Source of the DNA: Planctomycetota bacterium
GTDB lineage: Bacteria > Planctomycetota > Planctomycetia > Pirellulales > Pirellulaceae
NCBI GenBank assembly: GCA_027619595.1
Contig: JAQCHP010000028.1
Location: forward strand, 1 to 42,583
Direction: 5' to 3'
DNA: 42,583 nt
Positions 562 through 36,844 of the stretch are shown here, piece by piece. The notes under the pieces are model-generated. The model saw only the letters and a program-made list of their open reading frames with translations, had not been told where the DNA came from and ran no database searches. The position numbers and the translations under genes are program-made. The stretch's first letter is position 1. Every line of letters begins with the position of its first letter.

Positions 562-1701
562 GTGTGCACAATGGATAATAATTTGTTTGGTTGGCTGACT
601 CCAGCAGGGAGAGGAGGGATTGCGACCATGGTTTGTTCCGGTCCGCAGGCGGAAGCTGCTTTGTCTGATTTTTTTCGACCCATTGCCGGCCGCCACCCGA
701 CAGCCAATCCGAAACGTCCTCGGTTCGGGCTCTGGGCGTTTTCTAACAATCCTTCCGTGGTCGAAGAAGTTGTCGTCGTGAATGATTTCGGTGACCAATT
801 TGAGCTACATCACCATGGAGGAGTGGCAATCCAGGCGTTATTACGCGAGCAGCTTGGCCGGTTGGGGTTTCGCGAAAGGACTTGGGGGGAGTGGATTGTA
901 GCTGGTGAGCCAGATCCGATTCGCCAGGCCGCGTTGGTTTCGCTCGCAAGTGTCCTGACACGACGTGGTGCGGTCCTATTGCTTGATCAATACCATGGCG
1001 CGTTGCGTTGCGCGATTCAACGAATTCGGCAAATGCTGCAAGTTGGGCAGCTGGAGTCGGCGCGGCAGGAGATGCTGGCATTGTCCGAACGGAGTCCCTT
1101 TGGATTGCGGACTAGCGTTCCTTGGAAAGTCACATTTACGGGACCGCCGAATGTGGGAAAAAGCAGTTTGCTCAATGCAATGCTAGGTTTTCGTCGTGCC
1201 ATTGTCACCGACGAACCGGGGACGACACGGGATGTTGTGACTGAACTTACGGCGTTGGACGGCTGGCCGGTCCGGTTGGCCGATACCGCGGGTGTTCGGT
1301 CAACACCCGAGAGTCGCGTCGAAGCCATCGGAATGGCTCAGGCAGAACAAGAAATCCTGCAGGCCGACGTTGTTGTCCAAGTCCGCGAATGTGGTGGACC
1401 CGAGTTTGCGCCGCTGAGCAGTGTCCGCGTCCCGATCTTGCGCGTTACCAACAAGTCAGATCTCCTACCAACGGAAAACCGCACAGATTCGGTCAACGAT
1501 TTCGCCGTATCGGCAAGAACAGGTGATGGCATCGCGGCACTTGCAGTGCGAATTGGCAAGCTATTGGGGACCCATCCCCCGCAGCCAGGTGCTGCCGTAC
1601 CTTTCCTGCTGGAACAGGTACAATCACTGCACAGTGCCGTATCGGCTACGGAGCAGCGTGACGCCGCAATCGCGCTTCAGGCCTTGGCGGTGTTTGGTTG
1701 A
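562..1701 (+). CDS. MnmE/TrmE-like GTPase, shortened and without the C-terminal Cys motif
   Basis: The protein has 379 residues from GTG 562, chosen because GGAGG stands 9 bases upstream; ATG 571 is the alternative. It opens with LFGWLTPAGRGGIATMVCSG, matching the MnmE N-terminal folate-binding domain, but the middle is shorter than in MnmE. The G domain lies at about residues 188-330: P-loop GPPNVGKSSLLNAM, G2 PGTTRDVV, switch II DTAG, G4 TNKSD and G5 SARTGDG. Canonical MnmE has about 450 residues and ends in a C(I/L)GK motif whose Cys is needed for tRNA wobble-uridine modification. This protein ends ALQALAVFG with no such Cys. It keeps the GTP switch but probably cannot do the full MnmE reaction with MnmG. 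Its end overlaps the convergent Hsp70 gene by 25 bp. Confidence 0.85.
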   Translation: MCTMDNNLFGWLTPAGRGGIATMVCSGPQAEAALSDFFRPIAGRHPTANPKRPRFGLWAFSNNPSVVEEVVVVNDFGDQFELHHHGGVAIQALLREQLGRLGFRERTWGEWIVAGEPDPIRQAALVSLASVLTRRGAVLLLDQYHGALRCAIQRIRQMLQVGQLESARQEMLALSERSPFGLRTSVPWKVTFTGPPNVGKSSLLNAMLGFRRAIVTDEPGTTRDVVTELTALDGWPVRLADTAGVRSTPESRVEAIGMAQAEQEILQADVVVQVRECGGPEFAPLSSVRVPILRVTNKSDLLPTENRTDSVNDFAVSARTGDGIAALAVRIGKLLGTHPPQPGAAVPFLLEQVQSLHSAVSATEQRDAAIALQALAVFG

Positions 1702-4526
1702 GCAAGATCTAGTTGCAGGCCTGGCGGGAGTGAGTCGCCCCATACATCAAGTTGTGTATCGCGGTTCATTTCGCCGATCGTTTCGACCAGCGCGGATAAA
1801 GCCGGCGAAACATTCCGTTGAGCGAACCAGTCGAGGACTCTCTGACGGGTCCCCTCGCCAATATCACGCTGCCGATCTCCCGTACACCGGGCTAGTTGCA
1901 TCATGGCCAAGAAGATGGGTGTACCGTCCGGCGGGTCAATATCCATCAAACGTTGTATCCACTTCTCCGCATCCGCGGAAGCGACCACTGCATTCAGTGG
2001 GCCGTAAAGCGGAACACGACTTCCAAGTCGGCCGACCGACCAGATCCAAGGCGAGTGCACAGAGGTCCATTTCTTGCGTTCGATCAGATCGAAAAAGAGG
2101 TTCCCCAGTTCTCGCTTCGATTCCCTCGGCAGCAGTTCCAATGCGGCCAACATGCGGTAGAGCTCCCCAGCTTCGTGCAGTTGAAACCCTATGTCGACGC
2201 GCACGCCGCCCGAGCTCAACCAATGCTTGCGCGAGGAACGCAAAGCCGATAGGAACGGTTCAGCCAATGATTTTTGGTGTTTGGCGCTCAGTCCGCCAGC
2301 GACCCGACGCCACAGAACCCACATCTCATTTCTACACTCCGCGGTACTGTTGACAAGTTTTCCTTGCACAATTCGCCAAGTTTCCGCCACTCGCCAATCG
2401 TCGACTGCCATGCCGTAGCCTGGTCGCAGAGAAAATCCAACGAGGTTAAGCCATCGCGATTCATGTTGAGGGCTCATGCGGCAGCCATCTTTTAACGCGA
2501 GAAGCGTTTCCCAGATTCGTCGCAGCAGTGGCAAGGACCATTCGTTACGGTGTTGTCCAATGGCGGTAGAGAGCCGTCGAACAACTTGGGATGGCTTTTC
2601 CCCTGTCTTGGTTCCAAACGTGTCGACGAGAATCGATTCCAATTTGGACCAAGTTGATTCCTCCCATACTCCTGCGGCTTCTCCTGACGACTGCTGCGAT
2701 ACAATGTCGGTAGCGACGGCCGATCGTGCGTCGAATTGAAGCCGCCAGCGGCGTTCGTCTTGAGCGGATAGGCACCAAAGTTCCAGCGTCCCAATTTCTG
2801 TCAGATCGGCACGCAGTTGTACGGCCACTGTTTCGGATTTGCTTCTTCTCACTCCTGTTTGAAGCGCCGTCCTAATGGGAGGCAGGGGCTTCATGTGATC
2901 TCGATCCAGATCCAGAATCTGGCCGGGTCGGTCGGCCAATCGGGTACTCGAGACAAACAAAGGAAATTCAGCAGGTTGGGAGACCAACAGTTGGAAGTTC
3001 GGCTGCTCCAGCACTATCGAGTCCCCTGGTTCGGCGGTGCCTGGTACTAGGCACACGACTTGTGGCGGTGTGGCGTTGATACCCAAGTAGTACGTTCGCG
3101 CCAGTCCCGCCGCTATGCGTTCGCCTTGTCCGCGACGGACCATTCCATAGTAGGCAGCGCCATGTGCCACAGCCTGATCGAGCCGGGCATTGGGTAAGAC
3201 TTGTGGCGACCAGGGCCGATTCGCCTCAGAAAACCACCGGCATAAAACGTCAACGACGCGTGCGCGAATCTCAGGAGATGCAAACGCGCCTCCGTTAAAA
3301 AGCACAATGTCAGGCCGTACAGCTCGGACGTCGTCTACCGTATGGGCAAGCTCGTCGGTTGCATGGTCCCGTAGAAATTGCGCCAGGTAGCGGGTCACCG
3401 CTGCGTCTTTGGCGTAGGGGAGACTGAATTCCTGAAAACCCGATTGTGCCGCTTGCGGGTCGTCCGTCAGTTTGGCATACGGAAAGAAACCGTCCACCAA
3501 AAGAGTGACAACTTGATCGCGCGTGATACGAATCTGGTGACCTTCGCTGATAATCCTCGATCCCGTACCTGCTAGGTGAATGGTCAACTCTTCCGGCGGA
3601 AGGTCTCCCAAGAGAATTTCCTTGGCGCGGCGACATTGTCGTAGCAGGTTTTCCCAATTGCGGCTGTCCAACTGTCCTTGAATCGATTGTTCAACATGGT
3701 GTGCAAGAGCAAGATCGAGATTGTCCCCGCCTAGGATCAGATGATTTCCGACGGCAACGCGATGAAATTGAATTTCTCCTTGGTCATTTGGTAGATTGCG
3801 GCGGCGAACGCGGATCAGCGTTAGGTCAGTCGTTCCGCCACCGACATCGATTACCAGAATATTTTGCCCTAATGCAACGTGATCATTCCAATTCGAACGA
3901 TGCTGTTCGACCCATGCGTAAAATGCAGCTTGTGGTTCTTCAATCAGTGTAATCTTGGGCAGACCGGCGGCAGCCGCTGCTTGGATCGTTAGTTCCCTTG
4001 CAATTTCATCAAATGACGCAGGGAGGGTGACGACTACATCCTGTTCTGCGAGAGGAAATTCAGGAAAGGCGTGATTCCATGCATCGTGAAGGTGTTGAAG
4101 GTATCGCCCGCTGGCTTCCACTGGAGAAATCGGATGGGTACCTTCCAGTGCATTCCACGGCAGTATGTTTGCAGTACGATCTACGCCCGCGTGGCATAGC
4201 CACGACTTTGCCGACACGATCACGCGGCCGTGACTTGCTTGGCTATGGTCACGTGCCAAGACGCCGACAACATACGTAGCCGTGGCGCGCCAGGGCAACG
4301 CCAGAACTTGAGGGGCCATTTCGCCGACCGCTGGCTCGAAATGGAACGAGGGGAGTGTTTCACGCCGCTCAACTTCACCCGGTGCGATCACTTGGGGTAT
4401 ACGAAAAATCCGCACGCGCCAGGGAATTTCGTGCGTGTCGACAAAGTTCAGCGCCGAATTGGTGGTCCCTAAGTCAATTCCAACGACATAGCGCGGAGGT
4501 GTATCGGCTTCCAAAGATTTTTGCAT
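1677..4526 (-). CDS. Long Hsp70-family protein with ~340-residue C-terminal extension
   Basis: The product has 949 residues from ATG 4526. A longer frame to 4643 exists but would overlap the upstream Hsp70 gene and lacks homology before the ATPase. The Hsp70 nucleotide-binding domain shows phosphate-1 IGxDLGTTNS-type VVGIDLGTTNSALNF, phosphate-2 VIDVGGGTTDLTLI and the adenosine-site segment IVLFNGGAFASP. A short beta-type substrate domain ends near LTEIGTLELWCLS, which has a close counterpart at the C-terminus of the neighbouring shorter Hsp70. Beyond it come about 340 largely helical residues, resembling the region annotated DUF3731 in some Hsp70 proteins (recalled from memory, not searched). 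It is the third gene of an operon, 22 bp after the short Hsp70. Its client is unknown. Confidence 0.9.
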   Translation of the reverse strand: MQKSLEADTPPRYVVGIDLGTTNSALNFVDTHEIPWRVRIFRIPQVIAPGEVERRETLPSFHFEPAVGEMAPQVLALPWRATATYVVGVLARDHSQASHGRVIVSAKSWLCHAGVDRTANILPWNALEGTHPISPVEASGRYLQHLHDAWNHAFPEFPLAEQDVVVTLPASFDEIARELTIQAAAAAGLPKITLIEEPQAAFYAWVEQHRSNWNDHVALGQNILVIDVGGGTTDLTLIRVRRRNLPNDQGEIQFHRVAVGNHLILGGDNLDLALAHHVEQSIQGQLDSRNWENLLRQCRRAKEILLGDLPPEELTIHLAGTGSRIISEGHQIRITRDQVVTLLVDGFFPYAKLTDDPQAAQSGFQEFSLPYAKDAAVTRYLAQFLRDHATDELAHTVDDVRAVRPDIVLFNGGAFASPEIRARVVDVLCRWFSEANRPWSPQVLPNARLDQAVAHGAAYYGMVRRGQGERIAAGLARTYYLGINATPPQVVCLVPGTAEPGDSIVLEQPNFQLLVSQPAEFPLFVSSTRLADRPGQILDLDRDHMKPLPPIRTALQTGVRRSKSETVAVQLRADLTEIGTLELWCLSAQDERRWRLQFDARSAVATDIVSQQSSGEAAGVWEESTWSKLESILVDTFGTKTGEKPSQVVRRLSTAIGQHRNEWSLPLLRRIWETLLALKDGCRMSPQHESRWLNLVGFSLRPGYGMAVDDWRVAETWRIVQGKLVNSTAECRNEMWVLWRRVAGGLSAKHQKSLAEPFLSALRSSRKHWLSSGGVRVDIGFQLHEAGELYRMLAALELLPRESKRELGNLFFDLIERKKWTSVHSPWIWSVGRLGSRVPLYGPLNAVVASADAEKWIQRLMDIDPPDGTPIFLAMMQLARCTGDRQRDIGEGTRQRVLDWFAQRNVSPALSALVETIGEMNRDTQLDVWGDSLPPGLQLDLAQPNTAKA

Positions 4527-4548
4527 GGTGACGTGAAAATCCGACACT

Positions 4549-6327
4549 CTAAGCCGGGTCTCGTACGCTAAATTCCAATTTCCAACGTTGCGTCGCGATG
4601 GTACTGACGCACCATAACTCCAACGTTCCGATTTCCGTAACACGAGCTTGAAAGCGTATTGGTACGATCTGCTCGGTGCATTCGGCCGGACGTGTCAGCA
4701 TTGTCTCCAGCGAATCGGTTTCCTCAAGTTCGTTGGGCCCCCATCGGGTTAGTAGTTTTCCTGGTGCGTCTTGTTGACGTACCGAAGAACTAAAGAAACG
4801 AAATCGAGCAGATTCGCCAAGCAGAAGTCCGATTTCGCGGGAGGGCACGTCAATCGACGTCCCTTCTTCCATACCAAACGGGACGACACACAGAGCGTGT
4901 AGGGGGCGAGACGCTCCAGGCACGGCCAGTCCGGTACTCTCGAACCCGACGTAGTAGGATCTCGCAGTACCTCCACGTATGCGTACCCCTCCATGGGTTT
5001 GCGTCCAAGCGCAATACGCGGCGCCGCGTGCGACGGAGTGGTCGAGGTGGACACTGCTATCGAGAGTAACGGGGGGCTGCTCCGGAAACCATGCGGCAAG
5101 CGTTTCGAGTATTCGACGTTGAAATGCCGTAGACCGAAAGACGCCACCGTTGAATAGCACATGCGTAGGTGGCCGAGGCGGCGAAGTGGCATGATCCCCT
5201 AGGAATCGGGCCACGTGTTTCGTTATGGCAGTATCTAGCTCGTACGGCAGTCCCAACTCCAGGAAACCACTCTGGCGTTGAGCTTGCGGGCGGTCCAACA
5301 AGCTACAGGGCGGAAAAAAACCGTCCAAGATGGATCGCTGGACATCGTCTCGACGCATTTCCAGGGAAACCGTACCACCGATCAACTTGGTTCCTCGCCC
5401 TAAGATGGACAAGGAATAACTTTCGGGACCGCTAGGCTGTAGCAGGGTTTCTTTGGCCCGCCGGCAGGCGTGCCACAACGAGACCGATTGCCATGGATCC
5501 AACGAGACGCCCTGTTGTTCAAACCGTGCCGCTGCTTCATGGGCCAAAAGCAGATCCATATTATCACCGCCAACCAACAAGTGGTTTCCAACGGCGAGGC
5601 GCTCTAGGTGGAGTTCCCCCTCCCGCTCGACAACTTCGATCAACGATAAATCGGTAGTGCCGCCACCAACATCGCAAACAAGCAACCGATCTCCAACGCC
5701 CAGCGTCTTGCGCCAATGCGGTTCCTGGTCGGCGAGCCAGGCATAAACGGCGGCCTGCGGTTCTTCCAGAAGGGTTACCTGTTCCGGTAGCCCTGCGGCG
5801 ATGGCGGCTTCTCGTGTCAGTTCTCGCGCACTTGCGTCGAACGATGCGGGAACGGTCAGTCCAACGATCTGTTCGCGAAGAGGGGCGTCAGGATGATCAT
5901 GGTCCCACGCCTGTCGCAAGTGTTGCAGGTAGTGCGTCGACGCAGTCACTGGAGAGATTTTTTCTATTTCGTCGGGTGCATCCCACGGTAGCAGGGGTTG
6001 TTGGCGATCCACGTGATGAAATGCCAGCCAACTCTTGGCACTGCCGACTGTACGTTCCGGTGCGATCGCCGACTGCAACCGCGCGATTTCGCCGACGCAA
6101 TATCCCATCTCGGATTCCCAGGGTAAAGCGTAGATCGAGCGATCCTCCGTTACCGCTGGCAAAAAGGCAAATGACGGAAGTTCAGTACGATTTTCGGTCG
6201 TCATTGCGGCGACCAGTTGCGGAATGGGTACGACTTGGCCAATTCCGGACTCAGAGTCGAGTGGTACAGCCGCCATCACAGAATTTGTCGTGCCTAAATC
6301 GATGCCTATCGCATAGCGAGCTGTCAT
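4549..6327 (-). CDS. Short Hsp70-family (DnaK-like) protein
   Basis: The 592-residue protein opens with YAIGIDLGTTNSVMAAVP (phosphate-1), has CDVGGGTTDLSLIEV (phosphate-2) near residue 220 and VLFNGGVFRS (adenosine site) near 400. It ends soon after VTEIGTLELWCVS, so it has the ATPase and a compact beta domain but not the helical lid or C-terminal tail of DnaK. At 592 residues it belongs to the YegD/uncharacterised Hsp70 group rather than canonical DnaK (about 640). ATG 6327 lies 3 bp after the DUF2760 stop, with GAGGT ten bases upstream inside that gene, so translational coupling is likely. No DnaJ or GrpE gene is nearby. Substrate and partners are unknown; a paired function with the adjoining long Hsp70 is inferred. 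Confidence 0.9.
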   Translation of the reverse strand: MTARYAIGIDLGTTNSVMAAVPLDSESGIGQVVPIPQLVAAMTTENRTELPSFAFLPAVTEDRSIYALPWESEMGYCVGEIARLQSAIAPERTVGSAKSWLAFHHVDRQQPLLPWDAPDEIEKISPVTASTHYLQHLRQAWDHDHPDAPLREQIVGLTVPASFDASARELTREAAIAAGLPEQVTLLEEPQAAVYAWLADQEPHWRKTLGVGDRLLVCDVGGGTTDLSLIEVVEREGELHLERLAVGNHLLVGGDNMDLLLAHEAAARFEQQGVSLDPWQSVSLWHACRRAKETLLQPSGPESYSLSILGRGTKLIGGTVSLEMRRDDVQRSILDGFFPPCSLLDRPQAQRQSGFLELGLPYELDTAITKHVARFLGDHATSPPRPPTHVLFNGGVFRSTAFQRRILETLAAWFPEQPPVTLDSSVHLDHSVARGAAYCAWTQTHGGVRIRGGTARSYYVGFESTGLAVPGASRPLHALCVVPFGMEEGTSIDVPSREIGLLLGESARFRFFSSSVRQQDAPGKLLTRWGPNELEETDSLETMLTRPAECTEQIVPIRFQARVTEIGTLELWCVSTIATQRWKLEFSVRDPA

Positions 6328-6330
6328 GAG

Positions 6331-6930
6331 CTAGGGCACCTCAATTTCAGCCGGTGCTATGATCAACGAGCTTTCTTTGGCGCCAGACCACTGGGGGAGT
6401 TCCAGTCGACTGGCTTCCCAACCATGGTGAATCAACCGTCCTCGATAGGGCGGACTGCCGGTGACACGACCGCTTAATTGCCAGCGCGCTGCGTCAATGA
6501 CCGTCGGTGTTTCAACTTCTGCTCCCTCTTCGAATGCGACGACCGGCTTGAGGTCCAACGTACGTCGTAAAACGTCTTGGCAGCCTCGCAAAACGGTTCT
6601 CGCAGCAGCTCCAACCTGTGCGTCGCTGTACGCGTCAAGATTTTCTTGGACTAGATCCAACCAGCGTGCTTCCCGTTGCAAGGCTGCCAAGAGCGAAATC
6701 GCATCGTTCCGCCGACTCGCCGGCTTCGTGGAAACCTTTTCCTGGTTCGGCGTGGTTGACGCCGGCGGATGATCTTCGGTTAGCGACGGGAGGCTTGGAA
6801 TCGCTCCCTTCCCTGCGAGCGCACGTTTCGCCGCAACGCTTTCAATGAGCGTGCGTTCCATGGTGTCGATCGACACCGATCCGAATAAAGTGGCAAACAT
6901 GGCTCGGATCGCCACAAAAAAACGCCGCAT
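6331..6930 (-). CDS. DUF2760 protein, partner of the Hsp70 pair
   Basis: The product has 199 residues from ATG 6930, chosen because AAGGGG stands upstream at good spacing; a TTG at 6984 would add 18 hydrophobic residues. The N-terminus MRRFFVAIRAMFATLFG and the core SLLAALQREARWLDLVQENL followed by YSDAQVGAAARTVLRGC are the diagnostic parts of DUF2760. A Pro/Ser/Thr-rich linker at about residues 50-75 joins the two. DUF2760 genes are known to precede one or two Hsp70-family genes in other bacteria, and the same order is seen here with a 3-bp gap. The C-terminal half contains a conserved PPYRGRLIHHGW segment. The function is unknown; it may be a dedicated cofactor or client adaptor of the two Hsp70s. 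Confidence 0.85.
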   Translation of the reverse strand: MRRFFVAIRAMFATLFGSVSIDTMERTLIESVAAKRALAGKGAIPSLPSLTEDHPPASTTPNQEKVSTKPASRRNDAISLLAALQREARWLDLVQENLDAYSDAQVGAAARTVLRGCQDVLRRTLDLKPVVAFEEGAEVETPTVIDAARWQLSGRVTGSPPYRGRLIHHGWEASRLELPQWSGAKESSLIIAPAEIEVP

Positions 6931-7096: not shown

Positions 7097-8404
7097 TCAG
7101 ACTTCCGCCAATCGTTCGCGCGAATCACCAAACTCGGTCAGGTGAATGTCACACTTGTCGAGCATCGATAGGTAGAGGCTGCACATTTTGCGGTTGGACT
7201 GTTCGGTGTAGTCGAGTACACGACCACTCTGAAGCTTCCCACCACCGCCGCCCAATACCACCACTGGCAAACTGTTTGCCTCATGGTTGCCGGTCAACAT
7301 GCTGGAGCAATACAGTAACATGGAGTTGTCCAAAGCGGTGCGTTCTCCTTCCTGGATCGTGTCGAGCTTACCAGCGATGTAGCCGAGTTGCTCCAAAAAG
7401 AATTGGTTTACCTTAAGCCAGTCTGCTGTGTCCGAATGGGACAAGAGATGGTGGATCATGTAATCGACCCCCAAATGTGGGAATCGCATGGCGCTGTGAT
7501 CGTTGTTCAGTTTGAGCGTGCAAACACGAGTTGTATCGGTTTGGAAGGCCAGTACAAGAATGTCGCACATGAGACGCATATGATCGGCGATGTTCTGAGG
7601 GATTCCATCAGCGGGTCGAGCCATGTTGGGTTTGTCGAGCGTTGGACGCCATCCCTGAAGCTCACCTTTCTTGCCCGCCTGATCAATCCGTAGCTCGATC
7701 TCCCGGACGGAGTCCAAGTACTCGTCCAATTTGACCTGATCCGAATGGCTAATATGCTGCCGAAGGCTTGTGGCATCTTCCAGTACGGCGTCCAGGACAC
7801 TCTTGTCGCCGCGCTGCACTTCGTCTTTGAAGAGTCGATCAAAGGCAAGCGAAGGGTACAATTCCAGGGGAGTGGGCGCGGTTGGTGACGTCCACGAAAT
7901 ATGGGAACTGTAAATCATGGAATAATTTTTATGAACGGACGGATTCGATTTTTCGCAGCCGAGCACCAAACTTGGCACTTTCGTCGAATGGCCATGCCGC
8001 TGAGCAATCAATTGATCCACACTCGTTCCGGAACGAATATCGCCGCCCGATGCGAGAGGTGCTCCGGATAAAAGATTGCCAGTTTGCGAGCTGTGGATGT
8101 TCCCCTTGAGTGCCTCCTCATTGAAGAGTCCGCGGATAAACAAGAGCCGATCGCGAAAGTCATTGAGCGGCGATAGTACTTTTCCGAGTTCCATCGCTTT
8201 GCCAGATCCCTTGGCCCACCATTCCTTGCTGTGAAACCCATTTCCGGAAAACAGCACTGCCATGCGCACCGGCGCCTCGCTGCCGGCGTGAGATTTCTGG
8301 TTGGTTTCGTCTCCCCATACCTTTAGGGATTCCATCCAAGGCAGTGCCATCGTTACGCCAACGCCACGCAAAAACGTCCGGCGGGCAAAATGATGCGACT
8401 TCAT
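7097..8404 (-). CDS. DUF1552 protein, Tat-exported
   Basis: The 435-residue protein begins with a twin-arginine signal, FARRTFLRGVGVTMALP, and matches the DUF1552 family in its MAVLFSGNGFHSKEWW-type start, GTSVDQLIA, SLVLGCE and DLKLNNDHS-type segments. ATG 8404 has AAGGA seven bases upstream. DUF1552 genes typically follow DUF1592/DUF1588-type cytochrome genes in planctomycetes, and here the gene lies 72 bp after one. Family members are predicted to act outside the cytoplasmic membrane; no reaction has been assigned. It may be cotranscribed with DUF2760 (166 bp downstream), but that gap is long enough for a separate promoter. Confidence 0.9.
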   Translation of the reverse strand: MKSHHFARRTFLRGVGVTMALPWMESLKVWGDETNQKSHAGSEAPVRMAVLFSGNGFHSKEWWAKGSGKAMELGKVLSPLNDFRDRLLFIRGLFNEEALKGNIHSSQTGNLLSGAPLASGGDIRSGTSVDQLIAQRHGHSTKVPSLVLGCEKSNPSVHKNYSMIYSSHISWTSPTAPTPLELYPSLAFDRLFKDEVQRGDKSVLDAVLEDATSLRQHISHSDQVKLDEYLDSVREIELRIDQAGKKGELQGWRPTLDKPNMARPADGIPQNIADHMRLMCDILVLAFQTDTTRVCTLKLNNDHSAMRFPHLGVDYMIHHLLSHSDTADWLKVNQFFLEQLGYIAGKLDTIQEGERTALDNSMLLYCSSMLTGNHEANSLPVVVLGGGGGKLQSGRVLDYTEQSNRKMCSLYLSMLDKCDIHLTEFGDSRERLAEV

Positions 8405-8476
8405 ATTTGAGTCCTTGTGGTTATAGGGATGGTCGTCGTGTTTGGTTGAAAGACAATTGGATCGTCAACGGGGTCG

Positions 8477-11400
8477 CTACGGCGTAAAACCCTTTCCTCG
8501 AATCTTCAGAAATTGTTCACTCAGTATAATCGTTTCAATGGCAGCTGAGAATCGATAATCGTTGGCGGCAAGTTGCTGTTGGATTTCATCAAGGAGCGGT
8601 TCATCCGAAAGCTGGGTGGCTCGACCTAGCGAATATCCCAAGAGTTTGCGACAGAATTGCCGGAGGAATACCTCCTGACGGTCGGTCGCCAGATACTCAC
8701 GCAAGCCCGCCAGGCCGTCGATCACTTGGCCATCGGGAAGTGTCGTCTGGGCGTCGATCGGGCGGTTGGCTAGGTCGGTCTGCCTTAGTCGTCCGATTGC
8801 GTCATATCCTTCCAATGCAAACCCAAACGGGTCGATCTTCTGGTGGCACGATTGGCATTTTTCGTCAGTTGTATGTCGAGCTACGAGTTCGCGGACGGTC
8901 AGGCCATCCGTTGCCTGTTCGTCGTCCGGGAGACGCGGTACGTCTTTGGGTGGACGCGGCAGCTTGTCGCCCAAGAGTACTTCGCAGACCCAGTTTCCAC
9001 GCAAGATCGGACTTGTACGAGAAGCACCCGACTGTGTTGCCAGTGTCGTGGCGAACCCTAAGATGCCACCACGTCCCTGCGTCTGGACTTGGTTGACACG
9101 CCGCCACGCATCCCCTTGTACTTTGGGTATGCCATAAAACTTCGCCAGCCTTTCGTTCAGGAAAGTGTGGTCGGCATTCAGGAGATCTCGCAGCGACCCG
9201 TCACGTTGAAACAGATCGGAGAAGAAGAGGATCGATTCTTCGTACATGTCGTGACGAAGTTCAGTGAATTCGGGAAAGTACTTTTCGCTTTTTTCGTCCA
9301 ATGTATCAAACTGATAGATGTGGAGCCATTGACAGGCAAATTCTGTGGCAAGTCGACGGGACTTGGGGTCTTGCAACATGCGTTTTGCCTGCTGCTTCAG
9401 CACGGCTGGCTCATGCAACTTGTTCATGGATGCCAATGCTCGGAGTTCGGCGTCAGGCGCCGATGACCAGAGGAAATAGCTCAATCGTGTCGCAAGTTCG
9501 TTACCGGAAATGTGCTGCGCGAGCGTTCCTTCGGGTGATCGCTCGAGTCGGTACAAGAAATCAGGGGCGACAAAGATCCGCGCCAATACGAATCGGAACG
9601 CCTCTTCATGAGGTAATTCTTGCTTTCGTAACGACTGATACAGTTCGAGCAACCTGCTACGGTTCGCCTCCGTCAGCGGACGTCGATAGGCGCGTGCCGC
9701 GAAATCGATGAGAGCATCAATTTGATGAGGTTCCGCTTCCACGAGCTTTTTGCGGAATTTTTCAGCTCGATCGAAGATCGGTTTTCGCATCGGTGCGAAT
9801 GCAATTACTAAATCGGGACGATCCTGCGTTGCGTATTCCGTTAACTGTTCAAACGCGTCGACGAGTTGCAATGCGTCCTGGCTGACGAAGCGAAGTTCCG
9901 CCCACAAATCATCCAGCTTTTGTATTTCGGAGTCGCTCAACATCAACCGCTGCAGCGGTTCGTCTTCACGATGGAAAAGCGTCAAAGTGACTACTTCATC
10001 GACAGGGACAATTTTGGAGTAGCACAATGCGATGGGAAATACTTGGCGAAATTCTTCAAATGCCGTGTGGAAACGTTTCGATGCCACGCTGTTTTCTTGG
10101 ACGACTACTGGCATGGATGGCTCAAGCTGAGCCGACGTGACGCTCGAAGTTGTCGCTTCGAGTTGTACGCTTCCGTCGCCGCCCGACTCGGTATGCAGCG
10201 AACCCTCGGTGACCAATTCGCTTTCCGCGACCAGGTCTGCCGGCAGTCGGAATTCGACGACGGATGGAGCTTGCACGCACAGGCTACCTGGTTCAACTTT
10301 AAGGCCGCGTGGGTGACGCCCAAAAAGAGCGGGATCGAGTCCGAAGTCCGTTGCTTGTCGCTCACCGGGAGTTGACGCGGAATCCAGCGGCTCCGTTGCG
10401 ACACGCTGCCACGCCCGCATGAGAAATGGACCCCGGATCTCGGATAGTTGTTTATGTAGCACGGAATTAGGTTCCGACGTTTCTTTGTCGGGACCTGTGG
10501 CCAGCAAGTTCTGAATTGCTGTCGCAAGGGCCGTTTTCTCGGAGTCTGTTGTCGCAGTCTGCCACTGTGCCAAGAACGACCCAGGTGGTACGGAAGCGTC
10601 ATTGCCGGAGGGCGTGATCGGTTCGGTATAAAAATGCCAGACGTGGTCGTTCCCGAATTGGTCGGCGTGTGGATTTCCGGCAAGGATACTTGGGGACACG
10701 TCCTGCACGAGGTTCCAACTTTGTGCCGCGTTGTTCGTTGACTTGATAGCAAACTCTACTTCGGTGTAGTCGCAGCCCTGGGCGTCCCGCGGACCAAAGA
10801 CGAGCGACAAGAAGTCGCCAGGTCGAACCGTTACACTTGCCGTTTGACTTATCGAAACCGGCGTGTCTCCATTGGCGTCGCCACTGGCAAGCCTGAGTCG
10901 CGTCGCCCCGCGCCGCAACTCAAGTAACCATGAGACGCCATCCCCACACTCCGGGTTGACGTGCGTGATCTGGCCTTCAATTTGTACTGTTCCCGCGATC
11001 GGGCTCTGCCAGCCAATCGCCATCTGGAGCTTCGAGGACGGATGGACACAGATGCCATGTGGCTTGACAGTTCCCGGAATTCGCACCTCATGCTCCGACG
11101 CATTCGCCACGATAAACGGAGCCTCCGCGGTACCCCAACCGCTGACGGACGAATGGTCCAACACATTGGTGCGCTGGCTGGTGAGCAGATTGAGTTTTGG
11201 CGAAACGCGATCGCCAATGCCAAGGTAGTCGAGCCATGCGTTCAAGGATTCAAGACCGACGTTGTGTTGATGCGCAATCGACACACGGTCGAACTTCGTC
11301 GAAGTTTCGGTCCCGTCGATGGCTGCAGCTGCTGCCAGTGCCTTTGCCGTCGATGTGACGAGACGCTCGCGAAGAAGTTTCATGTCGCGATAGAACTTGC

Positions 11401-12754
11401 GCACCTCTAACAACGGGAGGTCGAGTCGTCCTGGAGCAACGAGACGCGGTTGTTGCCAAACGACGAAGTCGTTGGCGTTGCCGTCGCCAGCGTCACGTGC
11501 GACGAGCCTCATCGTCACTTCTTTCTGGTCCGTAGCCGTTAAGGGGAGACGAATCTCTTGTTGGTGAACGATCGGCGTAACCGGTTCTTGCCAAGATTTG
11601 GGGCCATTTTCTCGGCCAATATGGCCAATGGCAGAGAAACGCCAGAGGAATTTTTGCCACTGAATAATCCATTGGGCGATCGCCGGCGCGTCGTCGGATG
11701 TGGCCTTGCTCCATTGCTGGCCAAGCTTTTCCAGAAGCAGGGACGGGGTGCGTTGCGTAACGGCGTTCCGAAATATGTGCAAATACTTGGCGTTCAGGCC
11801 GTGTTGCTTTGCCAATGTGTTCACCGACTCTTGGCCATCCAGCAATCGGTGTTTCTCCGCAAGAGCGGTGGTCAGGTATCGTTCAAAGGGGAGTCGAATG
11901 CCTTGGTTGACGTCAAATTCGATTCCCTTGGCCGCCTCAGCGGTCATGTCGGTCGAGACAACTGGTGCCTGATACAGTGTCCGAATTTCCGCTATTGCAG
12001 CGTTGGTCCAGTCGCTGCGTGTGGTCGACTCGGTAAATCGAAACCCCTGGGGTAGTAGCTCAGCATGTGCCGCGATTTCTTTACCCGCAGCTAAGTACTT
12101 CGTAAGAAGCGATGGGGACATGACCAACGAATTGCCCGTGTTGGTGAATCCTTCCCCAGAAGCTCCGTCGGCGGGGAATTCGCGTGTGGGATCGAGTGGT
12201 ACACCGGTGAGATCCCGGATCGAATAAGTGTACTCGGCATTATTGAGCCGCCGCAGGACTACCGGGCCGGGATCTCCGGCATGGGCCAACGCTTCTGCGT
12301 GTAGATACGCGCCGATCCATTCGCGGAGTTGCTTCCTTTGTGCGGGAGTTGGCTGTAGGGCGTCCTTGGGGGGCATTTCGCCATTTTCGAGCATCTCCAC
12401 TACATGCAGCCACACAGGCACGTCGTTCCTGACTGACGCAAGGTCTGCAAATCGCTCCAGGTCAAGTTCTCCTTCTTGCTTCTCCGTGGAATGGCATTGA
12501 AGGCAAAACTGTTTCATCAGGGAATGAGCCACACTCGTGTACGAATCGGCCAACTTGTCAAACGAATCGTCGGATGGTTGCCCAGCAAACAACACTCGAG
12601 TTGTGCCACTAAGCAAAAATAGGATGAGTGTTACGTGCACCGTGGCAACTAGGATGCGACAGCCGCGAGTGACTCGACGCAGCCAAAAAAATGTTGAGAA
12701 GCGTCCCGCTACAGGGAGCGGAATCGTTTCTTCTGAATTGTGTAGCACGGCCAT
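8477..12754 (-). CDS. Giant planctomycete cytochrome protein (DUF1587/1592/1595/1588/1585)
   Basis: The 1425-residue protein has a long N-region and a hydrophobic segment at about residues 34-52 (VATVHVTLILFLLSGTTRVL), so it is exported or anchored. A haem motif FCLQCHS follows near residue 83, with the EMPP motif of planctomycete cytochromes. DUF1587 (LRRLNNAEYTYSIRDLTGV) starts near residue 167. A beta-rich domain resembling carbohydrate-binding modules occupies about 570-690 (PGTVKPHGICVHPS). Then come DUF1595 (RAYRRPLTEANRSRLLELY), DUF1592 (LATRLSYFLWSSAPDAELRAL), DUF1588 with a second CxxCH (EKCQSCHQKIDPFGFALEGY) and DUF1585 (VFLRQFCRKLLGYSLGRAT). It pairs with the DUF1552 gene downstream. 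Extracytoplasmic redox or polysaccharide-linked roles are often suggested for the family but are unproven. Confidence 0.92.
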   Translation of the reverse strand: MAVLHNSEETIPLPVAGRFSTFFWLRRVTRGCRILVATVHVTLILFLLSGTTRVLFAGQPSDDSFDKLADSYTSVAHSLMKQFCLQCHSTEKQEGELDLERFADLASVRNDVPVWLHVVEMLENGEMPPKDALQPTPAQRKQLREWIGAYLHAEALAHAGDPGPVVLRRLNNAEYTYSIRDLTGVPLDPTREFPADGASGEGFTNTGNSLVMSPSLLTKYLAAGKEIAAHAELLPQGFRFTESTTRSDWTNAAIAEIRTLYQAPVVSTDMTAEAAKGIEFDVNQGIRLPFERYLTTALAEKHRLLDGQESVNTLAKQHGLNAKYLHIFRNAVTQRTPSLLLEKLGQQWSKATSDDAPAIAQWIIQWQKFLWRFSAIGHIGRENGPKSWQEPVTPIVHQQEIRLPLTATDQKEVTMRLVARDAGDGNANDFVVWQQPRLVAPGRLDLPLLEVRKFYRDMKLLRERLVTSTAKALAAAAAIDGTETSTKFDRVSIAHQHNVGLESLNAWLDYLGIGDRVSPKLNLLTSQRTNVLDHSSVSGWGTAEAPFIVANASEHEVRIPGTVKPHGICVHPSSKLQMAIGWQSPIAGTVQIEGQITHVNPECGDGVSWLLELRRGATRLRLASGDANGDTPVSISQTASVTVRPGDFLSLVFGPRDAQGCDYTEVEFAIKSTNNAAQSWNLVQDVSPSILAGNPHADQFGNDHVWHFYTEPITPSGNDASVPPGSFLAQWQTATTDSEKTALATAIQNLLATGPDKETSEPNSVLHKQLSEIRGPFLMRAWQRVATEPLDSASTPGERQATDFGLDPALFGRHPRGLKVEPGSLCVQAPSVVEFRLPADLVAESELVTEGSLHTESGGDGSVQLEATTSSVTSAQLEPSMPVVVQENSVASKRFHTAFEEFRQVFPIALCYSKIVPVDEVVTLTLFHREDEPLQRLMLSDSEIQKLDDLWAELRFVSQDALQLVDAFEQLTEYATQDRPDLVIAFAPMRKPIFDRAEKFRKKLVEAEPHQIDALIDFAARAYRRPLTEANRSRLLELYQSLRKQELPHEEAFRFVLARIFVAPDFLYRLERSPEGTLAQHISGNELATRLSYFLWSSAPDAELRALASMNKLHEPAVLKQQAKRMLQDPKSRRLATEFACQWLHIYQFDTLDEKSEKYFPEFTELRHDMYEESILFFSDLFQRDGSLRDLLNADHTFLNERLAKFYGIPKVQGDAWRRVNQVQTQGRGGILGFATTLATQSGASRTSPILRGNWVCEVLLGDKLPRPPKDVPRLPDDEQATDGLTVRELVARHTTDEKCQSCHQKIDPFGFALEGYDAIGRLRQTDLANRPIDAQTTLPDGQVIDGLAGLREYLATDRQEVFLRQFCRKLLGYSLGRATQLSDEPLLDEIQQQLAANDYRFSAAIETIILSEQFLKIRGKGFTP

Positions 12755-13132
12755 AGTTCAAGTTCCGAAAAATAGTGTGCCCGATACAGCGTCGGAGAGA
12801 TTCGCTCATCGCGAAGCAGTAGCGTGACGGATCGGTACGGAAAGAGTAGGTGCGAATCGCGGTGGGGTTGGATCAAATCAACGGTACAGTATAGACAAAA
12901 GCGGCGGCCGAACAACTGAGCTATATGCTAGTGTACGTGTGGTAAATTACCTTTCGGCTAGCGAGGGCATAAGGGACGAATTGTCGCCGCTTTATCCGGA
13001 CCGAGTTTTTTTGTTGCAGCGATTGTGGTATGTTGGCGGTGGTTACAGCCTTGACGAACTCCTAGTAGCGCTTGGGACGGATACTGTTTTGTGGTGTTTC
13101 GCCGAAAACTCTGCGCGATCGAGGATATGACA
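12755..13132. other. Intergenic region between divergent DUF1592 and DUF1559 genes
   Basis: These 378 bases hold the start regions of two divergent genes. The minus-strand gene at 12754 has GGAAC about 7 bases upstream. The plus-strand gene has GAGGA at 13121-13125, seven bases before its ATG. A 63-codon plus-strand frame at 12939-13130 has no ribosome site or recognisable content. No clear promoter hexamers, RNA gene or repeat was found. Confidence 0.5.
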
Positions 13133-14119
13133 ATGAAAGTTAGAGCACGTCACCGAGTTGGCTTTACGCTAGTGGAGTTGCTGGTAGTTATCGCCATCAT
13201 TGGCATTTTGATTGGGTTGTTGTTGCCGGCGGTTCAAATGGCGCGTGAGGCGGCCAGCCGTACCGCGTGTACAAATAATCTCAAGCAAATTGGACTGGCG
13301 TTGCAGACATACAATACGGAGATGAATGCTTTTCCCGCGGGCGGGACCGGTTGCAGTAATGGTTACTACGGTAGTTCTTGGTGGATATCGGTCCTGCCGT
13401 GGCTGGAGGAGACGTCCATTTACGATCGGTATGACAAGACAGGTCGCGAGAGTGGCAGATCATATCAGTCAACGGGATGGATCATGACCGAGGACGGTGC
13501 TGCGAACCGCCATAATTTCAAGGTGCTCAACAAAGTGCCGTTACCGATTGCAAAATGTGCCTCCAGCCCGATACCGGCGTTGTACCATTACCGGAATGAC
13601 TTTTGGCTGTTCAAAGCCGACTATGTCGCCATTTCGGGGAGTAGCGATCGTCCGCTCGCCGACCTGCAAAACGGCTACTATTCGGTTGGCATCATTTCGG
13701 GAAGTGGTATCTTGACTCCGAATGCCTGGATCCGCATGAAGAGCATCACAGACGGTACAACGAAAACAATGGTTGTGGGTGAGCAGTCCGACTACTGTTA
13801 TTCGGCCGATGGAAGTCCCTCGTATTGTAGTAGCTCGTGCCTACATGGGTTTTCCATGAGCATTGCCAATTCCTTTCCGGGAGGTGACAACCGCGCTTTC
13901 AACATGGCAACGATTCGCTATCGAATCAGTAAAGACGCGTCTCTACTGAATTCCAATGGCTGCGGTGCCAACAGCCCACTCCAGTCCGCACATCCCGGGG
14001 GAGCGAATGTTCTGATGGCCGATGGCCATGTGCGGTTCTTGAACGAGAACACAAATATCCGAGCTCTCAAGGCAATGGCGGACCGGGATGATGGACAAGA
14101 CTTTGATGCAGAAATCTGA
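13133..14119 (+). CDS. DUF1559 pseudopilin-like protein
   Basis: The 328-residue protein has a type IV pilin-like N-terminus, GFTLVELLVVIAIIGILIGL, with the G/F cleavage site and the Glu at +5. This is followed by LLPAVQMAREAASRTACTNN and LKQIGLALQTY, both typical of DUF1559. The C-terminus carries the planctomycete motif HPGGANVLMADGHVRFLNE. ATG 13133 is preferred over ATG 13127 because GAGGA is 7 bases upstream. DUF1559 proteins are very numerous in planctomycetes and are thought to be processed by a prepilin peptidase; what they assemble into is unknown. The gene overlaps the following lipoprotein gene, suggesting coupled translation. Confidence 0.93.
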   Translation: MKVRARHRVGFTLVELLVVIAIIGILIGLLLPAVQMAREAASRTACTNNLKQIGLALQTYNTEMNAFPAGGTGCSNGYYGSSWWISVLPWLEETSIYDRYDKTGRESGRSYQSTGWIMTEDGAANRHNFKVLNKVPLPIAKCASSPIPALYHYRNDFWLFKADYVAISGSSDRPLADLQNGYYSVGIISGSGILTPNAWIRMKSITDGTTKTMVVGEQSDYCYSADGSPSYCSSSCLHGFSMSIANSFPGGDNRAFNMATIRYRISKDASLLNSNGCGANSPLQSAHPGGANVLMADGHVRFLNENTNIRALKAMADRDDGQDFDAEI

Positions 14120-14612
14120 GTGGACGGAGCAGGTTGGGCAATCGCTGATGTGGTCGTTGTGTCGTATCGCCGGTTGTCGGTTGCATGCTTTCCATTTGAC
14201 CCCCGTCATTGCAGCAGTATCGGTGGTGCTGATGGTCATGGCGGGTTGTCAGCGGCACGTCCCCTTGGGGAAAGCGGTCGGCATCGTGACGTTTCGAGGG
14301 AAACCGGTCGAGGCGGGGGCGGTAATCTTTAGCAACGACGCGGAGGGAGTAGCGTACGTAGGCCATTTGGGGCCAGGGGGGAACTTTCGATTCGAAGTGG
14401 CCGCTGGGTATGGCTTGCCGCCCGGTACGTACCAAGTTGGCATTGGTCCGCCACAACCGAAGCCTTCCCTTGAGGTCGACCTTGCACGAAAGACGGACGT
14501 CCGATCACCTTTCCCCGAAATTCCCAAAAAATATTTCGATCCCGCGACAAGTGGATTCACGGCGACCGTGGCGGATGGTGAAAATGAGCCGTTCCGGTTT
14601 GAGGTTCCATAA
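14088..14612 (+). CDS. Small lipoprotein with carboxypeptidase-regulatory-like fold
   Basis: The 174-residue frame contains a lipobox-like VLMVMAGC ending a hydrophobic stretch. The mature part starts GKAVGIVTFRGKPVEAGAVI and includes LPPGTYQVGIGPPQPKP, the pattern of the transthyretin-like or carboxypeptidase-regulatory domains found after DUF1559 genes in planctomycetes. The start is uncertain. ATG 14088 gives a 53-residue leader overlapping the DUF1559 gene by 32 bp; ATG 14148 gives a more normal 33-residue leader. It is probably attached to a membrane in the periplasm and cotranscribed with the pseudopilin gene. The ligand is unknown. Confidence 0.8.
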   Translation: MMDKTLMQKSEWTEQVGQSLMWSLCRIAGCRLHAFHLTPVIAAVSVVLMVMAGCQRHVPLGKAVGIVTFRGKPVEAGAVIFSNDAEGVAYVGHLGPGGNFRFEVAAGYGLPPGTYQVGIGPPQPKPSLEVDLARKTDVRSPFPEIPKKYFDPATSGFTATVADGENEPFRFEVP

Positions 14613-14670
14613 ACGGGTGCGCAGTCCACAGCACACTCCACTGTCCGCTTTTCTTTGTTTTTTTTATGCA

Positions 14671-15585
14671 TCAACTGGCATGCTGAAGGTTGTGCCGGTG
14701 TGTGCCATCGCCCCACGGCAGTCGTGTGACAAGTGTGAGGAGATTGATTTCGGGTGGGCAGTTCAACCGTAACGGGATCCCCGACTCCCGCAACCCGCGA
14801 GATACAAAGACTTGAGACGCGGGACCACGTACCAGGCCGGCGCGGTACTTTTCTCCGTATCGTGAGGGAAGCCACCGCGCGCCCAAACGGGGGACGTAGA
14901 TTTGTCCGCCATGCGTATGGCCGCTCAGCATCAAACCGACGCGCGGATCGGGTGATAATTCGGCAAAGTCGGGATTATGAGCCAATAAGATCACGGCTGA
15001 CCGATTGGGTATCCCGTGGACCGCGGTATTCACATTGGGTTTTCCCCAATACAGGTCGTCGACCCCGGCAATCCACAGTTTTTCGGCACCACTTCCGAGG
15101 CAAATGGTGCGATTCGTAAGATCGGTGATGCTGGTTTGTGCGACAATGTCGCGATACACAGCGCCCCCGTGCATCATGTCGTGGTTTCCTGGAACCGCGT
15201 ACACCCCTAGTGGTGCCTTCAGCCGTTCCATAACTTCGAGACACGGTGGCAATTCGACGTCGGTGTGCGTGCCACGGTGACCAAAGTCGCCCACCAGTGC
15301 GTAGGCGTCTGCCGACAGAGATTGAGCTAGTTCAGTCGCTTGTCGAATGAACGATAGGCTCACTAAAGGCCCATGGTGCAAATCAGCCAAGACTGCGATC
15401 GTCATACCATCGAATTCAGGAGGAAGATGGGGGAGATGTACTGTCCGACGAAGGATGCGTATTCTAGAGGCCTCCCAATAGCCGTAGCCGACTGTGGATA
15501 CGGGCAACGCGGCCAAGCCAGCGCCGAGCTTCATCGCGCGTTTGAGCCACTTACGACGGTGGATTTTGCCGCTCGGTTGCGTCAT
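14671..15585 (-). CDS. Calcineurin-like metallophosphoesterase (YkuE/YaeI-type), exported
   Basis: The 304-residue protein has the metal-binding motifs of the family in order: AVLADLHHG, ALVGDFGHRG, PGNHDMM, LLAHNPDF and LSGHTHGGQIYVPR. The second motif reads GDFG instead of the usual GDxxD, so one metal-coordinating residue may differ. The N-terminus, HRRKWLKRAMKLGAGLAALP, resembles a Tat signal or a signal anchor. ATG 15585 has GGAGGGG seven bases upstream. The closest known enzymes act on lipid-linked phosphate esters such as UDP-2,3-diacylglucosamine. It lies 86 bp after the DUF1501 gene on the same strand, so it may be the last gene of that operon. Confidence 0.88.
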   Translation of the reverse strand: MTQPSGKIHRRKWLKRAMKLGAGLAALPVSTVGYGYWEASRIRILRRTVHLPHLPPEFDGMTIAVLADLHHGPLVSLSFIRQATELAQSLSADAYALVGDFGHRGTHTDVELPPCLEVMERLKAPLGVYAVPGNHDMMHGGAVYRDIVAQTSITDLTNRTICLGSGAEKLWIAGVDDLYWGKPNVNTAVHGIPNRSAVILLAHNPDFAELSPDPRVGLMLSGHTHGGQIYVPRLGARWLPSRYGEKYRAGLVRGPASQVFVSRGLRESGIPLRLNCPPEINLLTLVTRLPWGDGTHRHNLQHAS

Positions 15586-15671
15586 TCTGGTACCCCTCCG
15601 GCCTTGAGAATCAGTAGGTCGAGAGTCGGTACGTGGCGGATCGGAGAGTGGTTCGCAACCCTCGGCTGCGG

Positions 15672-17162
15672 TTATGCAATAATGTCGTGAACAACATGGC
15701 CATGAACGTCGGTTAAACGATAGTCCCGACCGCTGTATCGGTACGTCAGCTTTTCATGGTCGAGTCCCATCAGATGCAGCATGGTCGCGTGTAGGTCGTG
15801 CACATGCATACGGTTCTCGATGGCCGAGAAGCCAAACTCATCAGTGGCCCCGTAAGCGAGCCCCCCTTTGACACCACCTCCTGCCATCCAGACGGTAAAG
15901 CCGTGATGGTTGTGGTCGCGGCCATTGTCCCCCTGTGAGGTTGGCGTACGTCCAAATTCGCCCCCCCACAGGACAATTGTATCCTCAAGTAGTCCCCTCT
16001 GCTTGAGGTCCCCCAACAAGGCGGCGATCGGTTGATCGATGACGCGTGACAGACTGCGATGTCCGTCGGTGTTCTTTCCGTGGTGGTCCCATGGTTGGCT
16101 CTTACCGCAGTAGATTTGCACGACCCGAACTCCTCGCTCGACCAGGCGTCGCGCCAAAAGGCAGTTGCGACCGTAGATTTTACGATCGAACTTGCCCGCG
16201 ATACTTTCGGCGACGAGGTTAGCATCAGGGCCCGTTAGTCCGTACATTTCCAACGTCGCGGCTGTTTCTTGGCTCGTGTCGAATGCCTCGGAAGCCCGCG
16301 TCTGCATGCGGTACGCCAATTCCAGCGATTGAATCCGCGCGTTCATGGCGTTTTCGGCTCCCCGCTCTTTCATGTGCATCTGGTTGAGGTGCTGAATGAA
16401 TTCCAGTTCGCGTCGCTGGGACGCGGGCGATAAGAGTGAATTTTGCAGGTACGGCATCACTTCGTTTGGTTGATATGTCGTGGGCAGCGTCACTTGGCAT
16501 CCTTGATAGATGCCAGGCAAAAAACGGCTACTCCAATTGGAGGGACCGTTAACCGGCTGCCCTTCACCCAGCACGACAAAGCCGGGGAGATTTTCGTTTT
16601 CGGTTCCAAGTCCATAGAGAAGCCATGAGCCGTACGATGGGCGTACGGGCTGAACACTGCCCGTGAACATCATCCAGTTGGAAGATTCATGGACCGGATT
16701 GTTCGTATGCATGGACCGAATCACACATAGGTCATCAGCAAATCGTGCGACGTGGGGGAATAACTCACTGACTGGTAGCCCCGACTCTCCGCATCGTTTG
16801 AACTTGAATGGTGACGGCATCAAGCCACCCGTCTTATTCTCCGTCGTGAGATTCACGGTCCCAGCGGGACGTTGGCCGGCAAATTGGGCCAGGGCTGGCT
16901 TCGGGTCAAACGTGTCGACCTGCGACGGAGCTCCGTTCATCCAAAGGTGGATGATGTGCTTGGCCTTGGCCGCAAAGTGGGGTCGCTTAAAGGCCAGTGG
17001 GCTGTTCGAAGAAGAACTATCCAAAGCTGCAGCGCGAACGTTTGTCGCCGGATTCCCCCATACCGCCGCCAATCCCAACACACCCATCCCGTTAAAGCAG
17101 TTGCTCAGCAAGGCACGCCGTGAAACCAAGAATTCGTTATTGCGATGAGGCTGTGGTACCAT
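15672..17162 (-). CDS. DUF1501 protein, Tat-exported
   Basis: The 496-residue protein starts with VSRRALLSNCFNGMGVLGLA, a Tat-type leader. It shows DUF1501 hallmarks: AKHIIHLWMNGAPSQVDTFD, LPVSELFPHVARFADDLCVI, GFVVLGEGQPVNGPSNWSS, LARRLVERGVRVVQIYCG, WGGEFGRTPTSQ with GRDHNHHGFTVWMAGGG, and a final HATMLHLMGLDHEKLTYRYS. The family is related to the alkaline phosphatase/sulfatase fold, but no activity is established. It follows the DUF1549/DUF1553 gene by 52 bp, the standard planctomycete pair, and is likely cotranscribed with it. Confidence 0.93.
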   Translation of the reverse strand: MVPQPHRNNEFLVSRRALLSNCFNGMGVLGLAAVWGNPATNVRAAALDSSSSNSPLAFKRPHFAAKAKHIIHLWMNGAPSQVDTFDPKPALAQFAGQRPAGTVNLTTENKTGGLMPSPFKFKRCGESGLPVSELFPHVARFADDLCVIRSMHTNNPVHESSNWMMFTGSVQPVRPSYGSWLLYGLGTENENLPGFVVLGEGQPVNGPSNWSSRFLPGIYQGCQVTLPTTYQPNEVMPYLQNSLLSPASQRRELEFIQHLNQMHMKERGAENAMNARIQSLELAYRMQTRASEAFDTSQETAATLEMYGLTGPDANLVAESIAGKFDRKIYGRNCLLARRLVERGVRVVQIYCGKSQPWDHHGKNTDGHRSLSRVIDQPIAALLGDLKQRGLLEDTIVLWGGEFGRTPTSQGDNGRDHNHHGFTVWMAGGGVKGGLAYGATDEFGFSAIENRMHVHDLHATMLHLMGLDHEKLTYRYSGRDYRLTDVHGHVVHDIIA

Positions 17163-17214
17163 ATTGCATTCCGATCCTCTGACATCAAGACCTACGCCCG
17201 CTACGCAAGTGTCC

Positions 17215-26202: not shown

Positions 26203-26212
26203 ACCAGTTATT

Positions 26213-36676: not shown

Positions 36677-36844
36677 TCACTCGGTCTTCATCCACATGGG
36701 GGCCGTTATGAGCCACACGACTGTGGAAACAAACATGGAGGACTTCACAGGTTCCAACGGAATCATGTGAAGTGCAAAAAGTACCGGTGGTACGATCGTC
36801 CCAGCAAGGGAAAACAGGCCGATGATCTTAGCGAACTGAATCAT
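36677..36844 (-). CDS. 55-residue membrane protein overlapping the permease gene
   Basis: The frame starts at ATG 36844 with GAGAG upstream, inside the last codons of the permease gene (17-bp overlap). It encodes two hydrophobic segments, FAKIIGLFSLAGTIVPPVLF and SSMFVSTVVWLITAPMWM, separated by HMIPLEPVK. The overlap and ribosome site suggest translational coupling and a role as a small accessory subunit of the transporter, much as small proteins accompany other permeases. No family was recognised. Confidence 0.65.
   Translation of the reverse strand: MIQFAKIIGLFSLAGTIVPPVLFALHMIPLEPVKSSMFVSTVVWLITAPMWMKTE

Follow-up and report, generated by a model that had tools for sequence, protein, structure and literature searches.

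What do three adjacent genes for a DUF2760 protein (D), a short Hsp70 (S) and a long Hsp70 (L) do together? They lie in the window, our term for the whole 42,583-nucleotide stretch of planctomycete DNA analysed here, and the original prediction took them for one compact chaperone cassette in which D is the Hsp70s' own cofactor. D, S and L are a real, conserved Hsp70 unit, a conclusion that is well supported, and the cofactor reading of D is plausible. As far as we searched, the module is undescribed: DUF2760, DUF3731, 'DNA-K related protein', PF10816 and PF12531 were not found in the literature covered, with a mention in a J-domain survey possible (Barriot 2020).

Table 1. Cassette genes and their parts, with positions in the window.
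Feature	Coordinates	Strand	Description
DUF2760 protein D	6331..6930	minus	ATG start, 199 aa; PF10816 2.9e-41; AF2 model
Short Hsp70 S	4549..6327	minus	592 aa, NBD + SBD-beta, no lid; PF00012 2.1e-16
Long Hsp70 L	1677..4526	minus	949 aa, NBD + SBD-beta + DUF3731; PF00012 1.5e-16, PF12531 1.7e-71
N-terminal helices of D, F-rich, amphipathic	6811..6927	minus	AF2 model, hydrophobic moment
DUF2760 core of D	6340..6708	minus	PF10816 positions 3-124; two helices, then seven short strands (DSSP on model)
SBD-beta of L	2733..3095	minus	Ten strands in model (strands 11-131); Foldseek best rows are Hsp70 SBDs
Helical domain of L containing DUF3731	1728..2684	minus	About fifteen helices, HEAT/ARM-like in model; Pfam match 1710-2474

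The predicted layout holds, with two refinements. Gaps of 3 bp (D/S) and 22 bp (S/L) separate the genes as first described, and an upstream TTG is a possible alternative start that would extend D to 6984. S was called lidless, and in alignment with DnaK it indeed ends at SBD-beta. The extension of L is helical in our model, as had been proposed; what the earlier reading missed is that it matches a family already named in Pfam, DUF3731 ('DNA-K related protein'). The segment TEIGTLELWC, pointed out as common to both Hsp70s, is present in both (from residue 564 in S and 576 in L), and it is not a special shared insert. It is common Hsp70 heritage because it aligns with G482-I483-L484 of DnaK SBD-beta: the G482 equivalent is glycine in 49/49 S and 47/48 L, and the L484 equivalent leucine in 47/49 S and 45/48 L. 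DnaJ and GrpE are absent from the cassette, again as predicted; the host genome, an assembly of 5.18 Mb in 281 contigs, has outside the cassette a DnaK, a single GrpE and four matches to the DnaJ domain. Another Hsp70-like match, in a frame of 897 aa (G000:C161:19637-20842), is distinct from both DnaK and the cassette.

Gene order is conserved among D-bearing loci. A contig search with D returned at least 515 relatives, of which we used the best 80, by title mainly Betaproteobacteria. D-S-L stood on one strand in 72 of these 80 loci; the others had L split (one), L cut (two), D-S (four) or D only (one). For four loci without a full adjacent L, DUF3731 was present in 4/4 of their genomes (L115 served as control). 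Of 91 D/S pairs measured, 68 overlap by 4 bp. The ORFs of the fetched loci contained no J-domain or GrpE match, and sigma32-like promoters upstream of D were in no excess over shuffles. A conserved fourth gene was sought and rejected, ten representatives of recurrent neighbour families all being common ones (LysR, GGDEF, SDR, protein kinase, histidine kinase, MCP). In genome G004, D and a GrpE gene share a contig (C85), about 10 kb apart. GrpE-like matches number four in G016 and three each in G018 and G020, possible dedicated exchange factors of other Hsp70s.

Some copies of the cassette reside on conjugative plasmids. D occurs in 11 of 72,556 plasmid records. Two Bradyrhizobium records and one from Comamonadaceae are annotated DUF2760 - Hsp70 - hsp70, that is D-S-L, and the same order was found by script in the Burkholderia and Caballeronia records fetched. 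A Thiodictyon plasmid carries D-S, DUF3731 being absent from that record. On a conjugative Bradyrhizobium plasmid, groES-groEL directly follows the cassette (L086 14255-16299).

Across genomes, D is the near-obligate third part of the unit, by co-occurrence. We sampled 294 genomes of the window's phylum and 349 of Pseudomonadota, 643 in all, each sample including the genome it centres on. D was over its cut-off in 33 and 27 of these, respectively (60/643), and S/L-type Hsp70s were present in all 60 D genomes and in one more, G282. The notion that DUF2760 occurs mostly without Hsp70 genes is thereby dismissed. In the window's phylum, S/L-type Hsp70s, called at E<=1e-40, occur in 34/294 genomes: the 33 with D and, in addition, G282, a 54%-complete genome in which DUF3731 and an S/L-type Hsp70 occur without D. 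DUF3731 is found in 30 of the 294, together with D in 29; two D matches and one DUF3731 match in this sample were below cut-off and excluded. In Pseudomonadota, DUF3731 occurs in 26 of the 27 D genomes and no others, and S/L in the same 27. Fisher tests of co-occurrence gave 1e-34 to 1e-43, values that are overstated because the sampled genomes are related. With D-S-L in 72 of the best 80 of at least 515 loci, the 60/60 co-occurrence bears out the prediction of a dedicated, conserved cassette.

Exceptions and dispersed copies fill in this picture. DUF3731 is present in 55 of the 60 D genomes overall. Among the D genomes without it, a contig end truncates an L-like piece in G065 and G253, G277 carries another S/L-type piece, a partial one, and no L-like piece is present in G214 (67% complete); in G324, from Pseudomonadota, 82 bases lie between S and the first base of the contig. 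All three genes are kept in G283, where D, S and L lie near 4.52, 0.58 and 1.73 Mb of one contig, and in G216, where they lie on three contigs. S is missing from two genomes of one genus, G235 and G290, in which D and L are kept.

S and L are Hsp70s distinct from the DnaK, HscA and HscC types, a distinction that is well supported. PF00012 is over cut-off for both, and their identity to E. coli DnaK, HscA, HscC and YegD is 21-25%; S and L are 42.6-43.9% identical to each other (42.6% over 606 columns). In a tree of 29 rows, with one E. coli sequence per Hsp70 type as reference and the C161 Hsp70-like match left out, a branch with support 100/99 separated DnaK, HscA and HscC from every S and L. 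S forms one clade, and L as one clade is not rejected by the AU test (p-AU 0.479), so that L may have gained the extension or S may have lost it. Equivalents of D8, T11, K70, E171, D194, T199 and D201 are present in 49/49 S and in 48/48 L, or 47/48 with one gap at D8 and T11; P143 is likewise kept in all 49 S and in every L having the position. All catalytic and switch residues are invariant in the 49 S, and in the 48 L only R151 varies (46), where the position is present. With these residues, S and L should bind and hydrolyse ATP. The SBD-beta model of L matched Hsp70 SBDs in Foldseek with a probability of 0.97-1.00 in most rows and a best E of 1.1e-3; pocket positions M404 and V436 were excluded because the alignment there appeared shifted.

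The linker between the two domains is replaced in both families. In the sections of a 2021 review that treat DnaK, the linker residues and D393 raise the ATPase rate, L391 and R167 touch the J-domain, and replacing the linker or D393 abolishes or greatly lowers linker stimulation (PMC8215388). The DnaK linker VLLLD, which is MLLLD in HscA and VILTD in HscC, reads IRGGT in the window's S and IAAGL in its L. The D393 equivalent is T in 43/49 S, and S, L, A or I in 45/48 L. At the R167 equivalent, arginine is never found in the 49 S and is kept in 23/48 L, in which a J-contact is therefore possible. Because the linker is not of the DnaK, HscA or HscC kind and the positions used by the J-domain are changed, S and L probably work without a J-protein, as judged from sequence.

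Lobe IIB retains a DnaK-length loop in S and L. The K270-R302 stretch measures 33 residues in DnaK, 23 in HscA and 25 in HscC; its equivalent has 34-35 residues in 47/49 S and 34-37 in 47/48 L, and a regular expression for the glycine-rich IIB pattern matched 44/49 S and 32/48 L. HscA and HscC are without the GrpE-signature motif and are believed to work independently of GrpE, in the part of the review concerned with them (PMC8215388). The loop kept in S and L fits a partner acting at IIB. In the nucleotide cleft, the same source names K55-E267 as one of the salt bridges slowing ADP release in DnaK (PMC8215388, in its passage on the cleft). The equivalents read R/R in most S and L, so this salt bridge is lost, and exchange may therefore be fast unaided.

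The DUF3731 end of L is predicted to be a HEAT/ARM-like solenoid, not a lid. We modelled L from linker to end (482 aa, 51 sequences; mean pLDDT 80.4, pTM 0.68), and the model runs from SBD-beta into solenoid-like helices in place of the alpha lid. With VIA, the helical part matched CAND1, importins and ARM repeats at Z 12-15, a likeness that describes shape because helical repeats readily score high.

D combines a hydrophobic end with the DUF2760 core. Its AF2 model (50 sequences; mean pLDDT 74.6, pTM 0.48, core blocks mostly 85-96) runs from two N-terminal helices through a disordered stretch to two helices and seven strands. The N-terminal helices, residues 2-16 and 21-40, have pLDDT mostly 57-79 by block. 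Many members have an F-rich amphipathic helix at this end (hydrophobic moment 0.50 in the window's D), and in two Bradyrhizobium D the N-terminal segments are hydrophobic enough for transmembrane helices, which suggests that the N-terminus may contact the membrane. Between N-terminal helix and core, D of family f21 (L042, L044, L045, L047) has a charged coiled-coil-like stretch, others a Pro/Ala-rich one. Weak matches to MnmE_helical were seen in 6/29 D members, best E 0.00065.

A GrpE-like fold for D is a lead from structural modelling. Foldseek gave no match to the D model at E<=0.001. In a second look with VIA against 128 chains, five GrpE entries took ranks 1-5 at Z 4.3-3.7, with the FIP200 claw next at 3.4, values that can arise by chance. 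The modelled layout of D, helices then a C-terminal beta domain, is compatible with that of GrpE. If the alignment is contiguous at its end, PAEIEV of D falls on AAMVTV of GrpE (1dkg_B). When 18,819 ungapped profile windows were scored, the top four fell in that register, but 20/300 shuffles reached a maximum as high; the scan was not blind, a C-terminal PAxVxV likeness having been noticed beforehand.

Tests on sequence profiles did not extend this likeness. Against 22 checked GrpE rows, HHalign of D was not above chance (its score was reached by 28/150 shuffles), and a GrpE HMM placed D not above decoys (AUC 0.46-0.51) and below reversed D. GrpE was absent among the weak Pfam families listed for 79 D members (25 of 107; 13 of 13), and two DUF2760 profiles found no match in a PDB sequence search. 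The GrpE link of D is a hypothesis because these tests give it no support. The HPD motif of J-domain proteins was found in 0/119 D.

Known systems share single features with this unit. Like the DnaK of DnaK-DnaJ-GrpE, S and L have all Hsp70 catalytic residues and a GrpE-signature region of about DnaK length, and D may have a GrpE-like fold. Unlike that system, S and L are only 21.7-23.6% identical to DnaK, with linker replaced and K55-E267 lost, S has no alpha lid, and the cassette has no J-protein. HscA-HscB and HscC-DjlB/DjlC resemble it as specialised Hsp70s with dedicated partners and a scattered distribution. Among NCBIfam models S and L match HscA best, but they score 76-80 bits where the cut-off is 620; moreover the partner D is not a J-protein, S and L keep the IIB loop, their linker is not MLLLD or VILTD, and they fall in a separate clade. 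Eukaryotic Hsp70-Hsp110 pairs unequal Hsp70s, one of which has a long helical C-terminus. The S/L pair is likewise unequal and L has such a C-terminus, a likeness in outline only, whereas the modelled L domain is HEAT/ARM-like and there is a third obligate protein, D. For Pfam DUF2760 (PF10816) and DUF3731 (PF12531), of which the window proteins are plain members, the family entries give no function. A 2015 review, in its part on exchange factors, knows GrpE as the one bacterial exchange factor (PMC4753570). The part of a Myxococcus study dealing with a GrpE homologue reports that it shares an operon with DnaK2, to which it binds (PMC11019930), which is a precedent for a dedicated exchange factor.

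The reading we lean towards, tentatively and with a little less than even confidence, is a dedicated Hsp70 machine that is associated with the membrane and probably independent of J-proteins. Its cofactor would be D, perhaps as an exchange factor resembling GrpE. D, S and L would form one dedicated machine beside DnaK/DnaJ/GrpE, in which S and L would bind and hydrolyse ATP, probably without a J-protein. The most likely role of D would be nucleotide exchange in the manner of GrpE, with the beta domain of D opening the S/L cleft at lobe IIB, and the hydrophobic N-terminus of D would tether the machine to the membrane on the cytoplasmic side. Lacking a lid, S would clasp peptide in extended segments, and a client or partner would be held by the solenoid of L. 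The clients are perhaps, at a guess, membrane or secreted proteins. Counted against this reading are the weak GrpE likeness of D (Z about 4), R167 in 23/48 L, the lost K55-E267, the absence of S from G235 and G290, and the GrpE gene about 10 kb from D in G004. In a rival reading, D would be a membrane-anchored adaptor or regulator of a dedicated Hsp70 pair and not an exchange factor, with L Hsp110-like towards S or no exchange factor needed. We regard that as quite possible, short of expecting it. The hydrophobic N-termini of D agree with it, as does the lack of sequence support for GrpE likeness, and the cleft salt bridge is lost as in HscA, which works without GrpE in the review's account of that protein (PMC8215388). 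Against an adaptor stand the IIB loop, kept in S and L unlike in HscA and HscC, and GrpE as the best structural match of the D model. The large helical C-terminus of L argues for L as an exchange factor; in G235 and G290, however, L cannot serve S because D is kept there with L only.

It is improbable that S and L are ordinary Hsp70 paralogues using the cell's DnaJ and GrpE, with D an accessory client or regulator: both proteins are available in the host genome and nearly half of the L proteins keep R167, but the linker and D393 are replaced in both families and S/L co-occur almost perfectly with D. A defence or mobile-element module is very improbable. Copies do ride on conjugative plasmids, the Thiodictyon copy has annotated anti-phage genes around it, along with genes for a VapC toxin and for a TIR protein (L084 1-16369), and PADLOC weakly matches NBD residues 220-306 of L to PDC-M61B (E 8.6e-6). 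PADLOC is blank, however, for S and D, D is absent from 50,697 phage records, the recurrent neighbours scanned belong to common families, and dispersed copies are kept in single chromosomes; a search for DUF2760 in IMG/VR gave 78 pattern matches, none a relative. We give almost no credence to the cassette as a unit for folding or quality control of the exported cytochrome/DUF1552 proteins encoded next to it, a link that the original prediction had raised. In the window these genes are adjacent on the same strand (DUF1552 to DUF2760, 166 bp), but neither has a homologue among the other fetched loci's flanking ORFs (E<=1e-10), and the cassette also occurs in 27/349 Pseudomonadota genomes.

The remaining surroundings in the window are varied. 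A 379-aa TrmE/MnmE-like GTPase (562-1701, plus strand; MMR_HSR1 6e-19, weak TrmE_N, far below the MnmE cut-off) is convergent with L, the two genes overlapping by 25 bp at the end of L; a link to this GTPase was rejected, with no homologue among other loci's flanking ORFs (E<=1e-10). On the minus strand, 7097-20403 holds exported modules of planctomycete type: in the first, DUF1552 accompanies PSCyt/DUF1592, and in the next, DUF1501 accompanies PSCyt/DUF1549/DUF1553 and a metallophosphatase. Two further minus-strand ORFs of 465 and 495 aa (24907-26304 and 36828-38315) have no Pfam match at 1e-5.

S and L amount to an Hsp70 lineage of their own, with D as near-obligate partner, set against the three prokaryotic types, DnaK, HscA and HscC, counted in the relevant section of the 2021 review (PMC8215388). 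In its fullest form, a fourth bacterial Hsp70 machine would combine two lid-free Hsp70s, a J-independent linker, one HEAT-like arm and a membrane-anchored, diverged GrpE-like DUF2760; that whole combination is doubtful, and we hold it loosely. If a J-protein is not needed, the unit would represent another way to drive the Hsp70 cycle. Under the preferred reading, DUF2760 and DUF3731, both families of unknown function, also acquire roles that can be tested.
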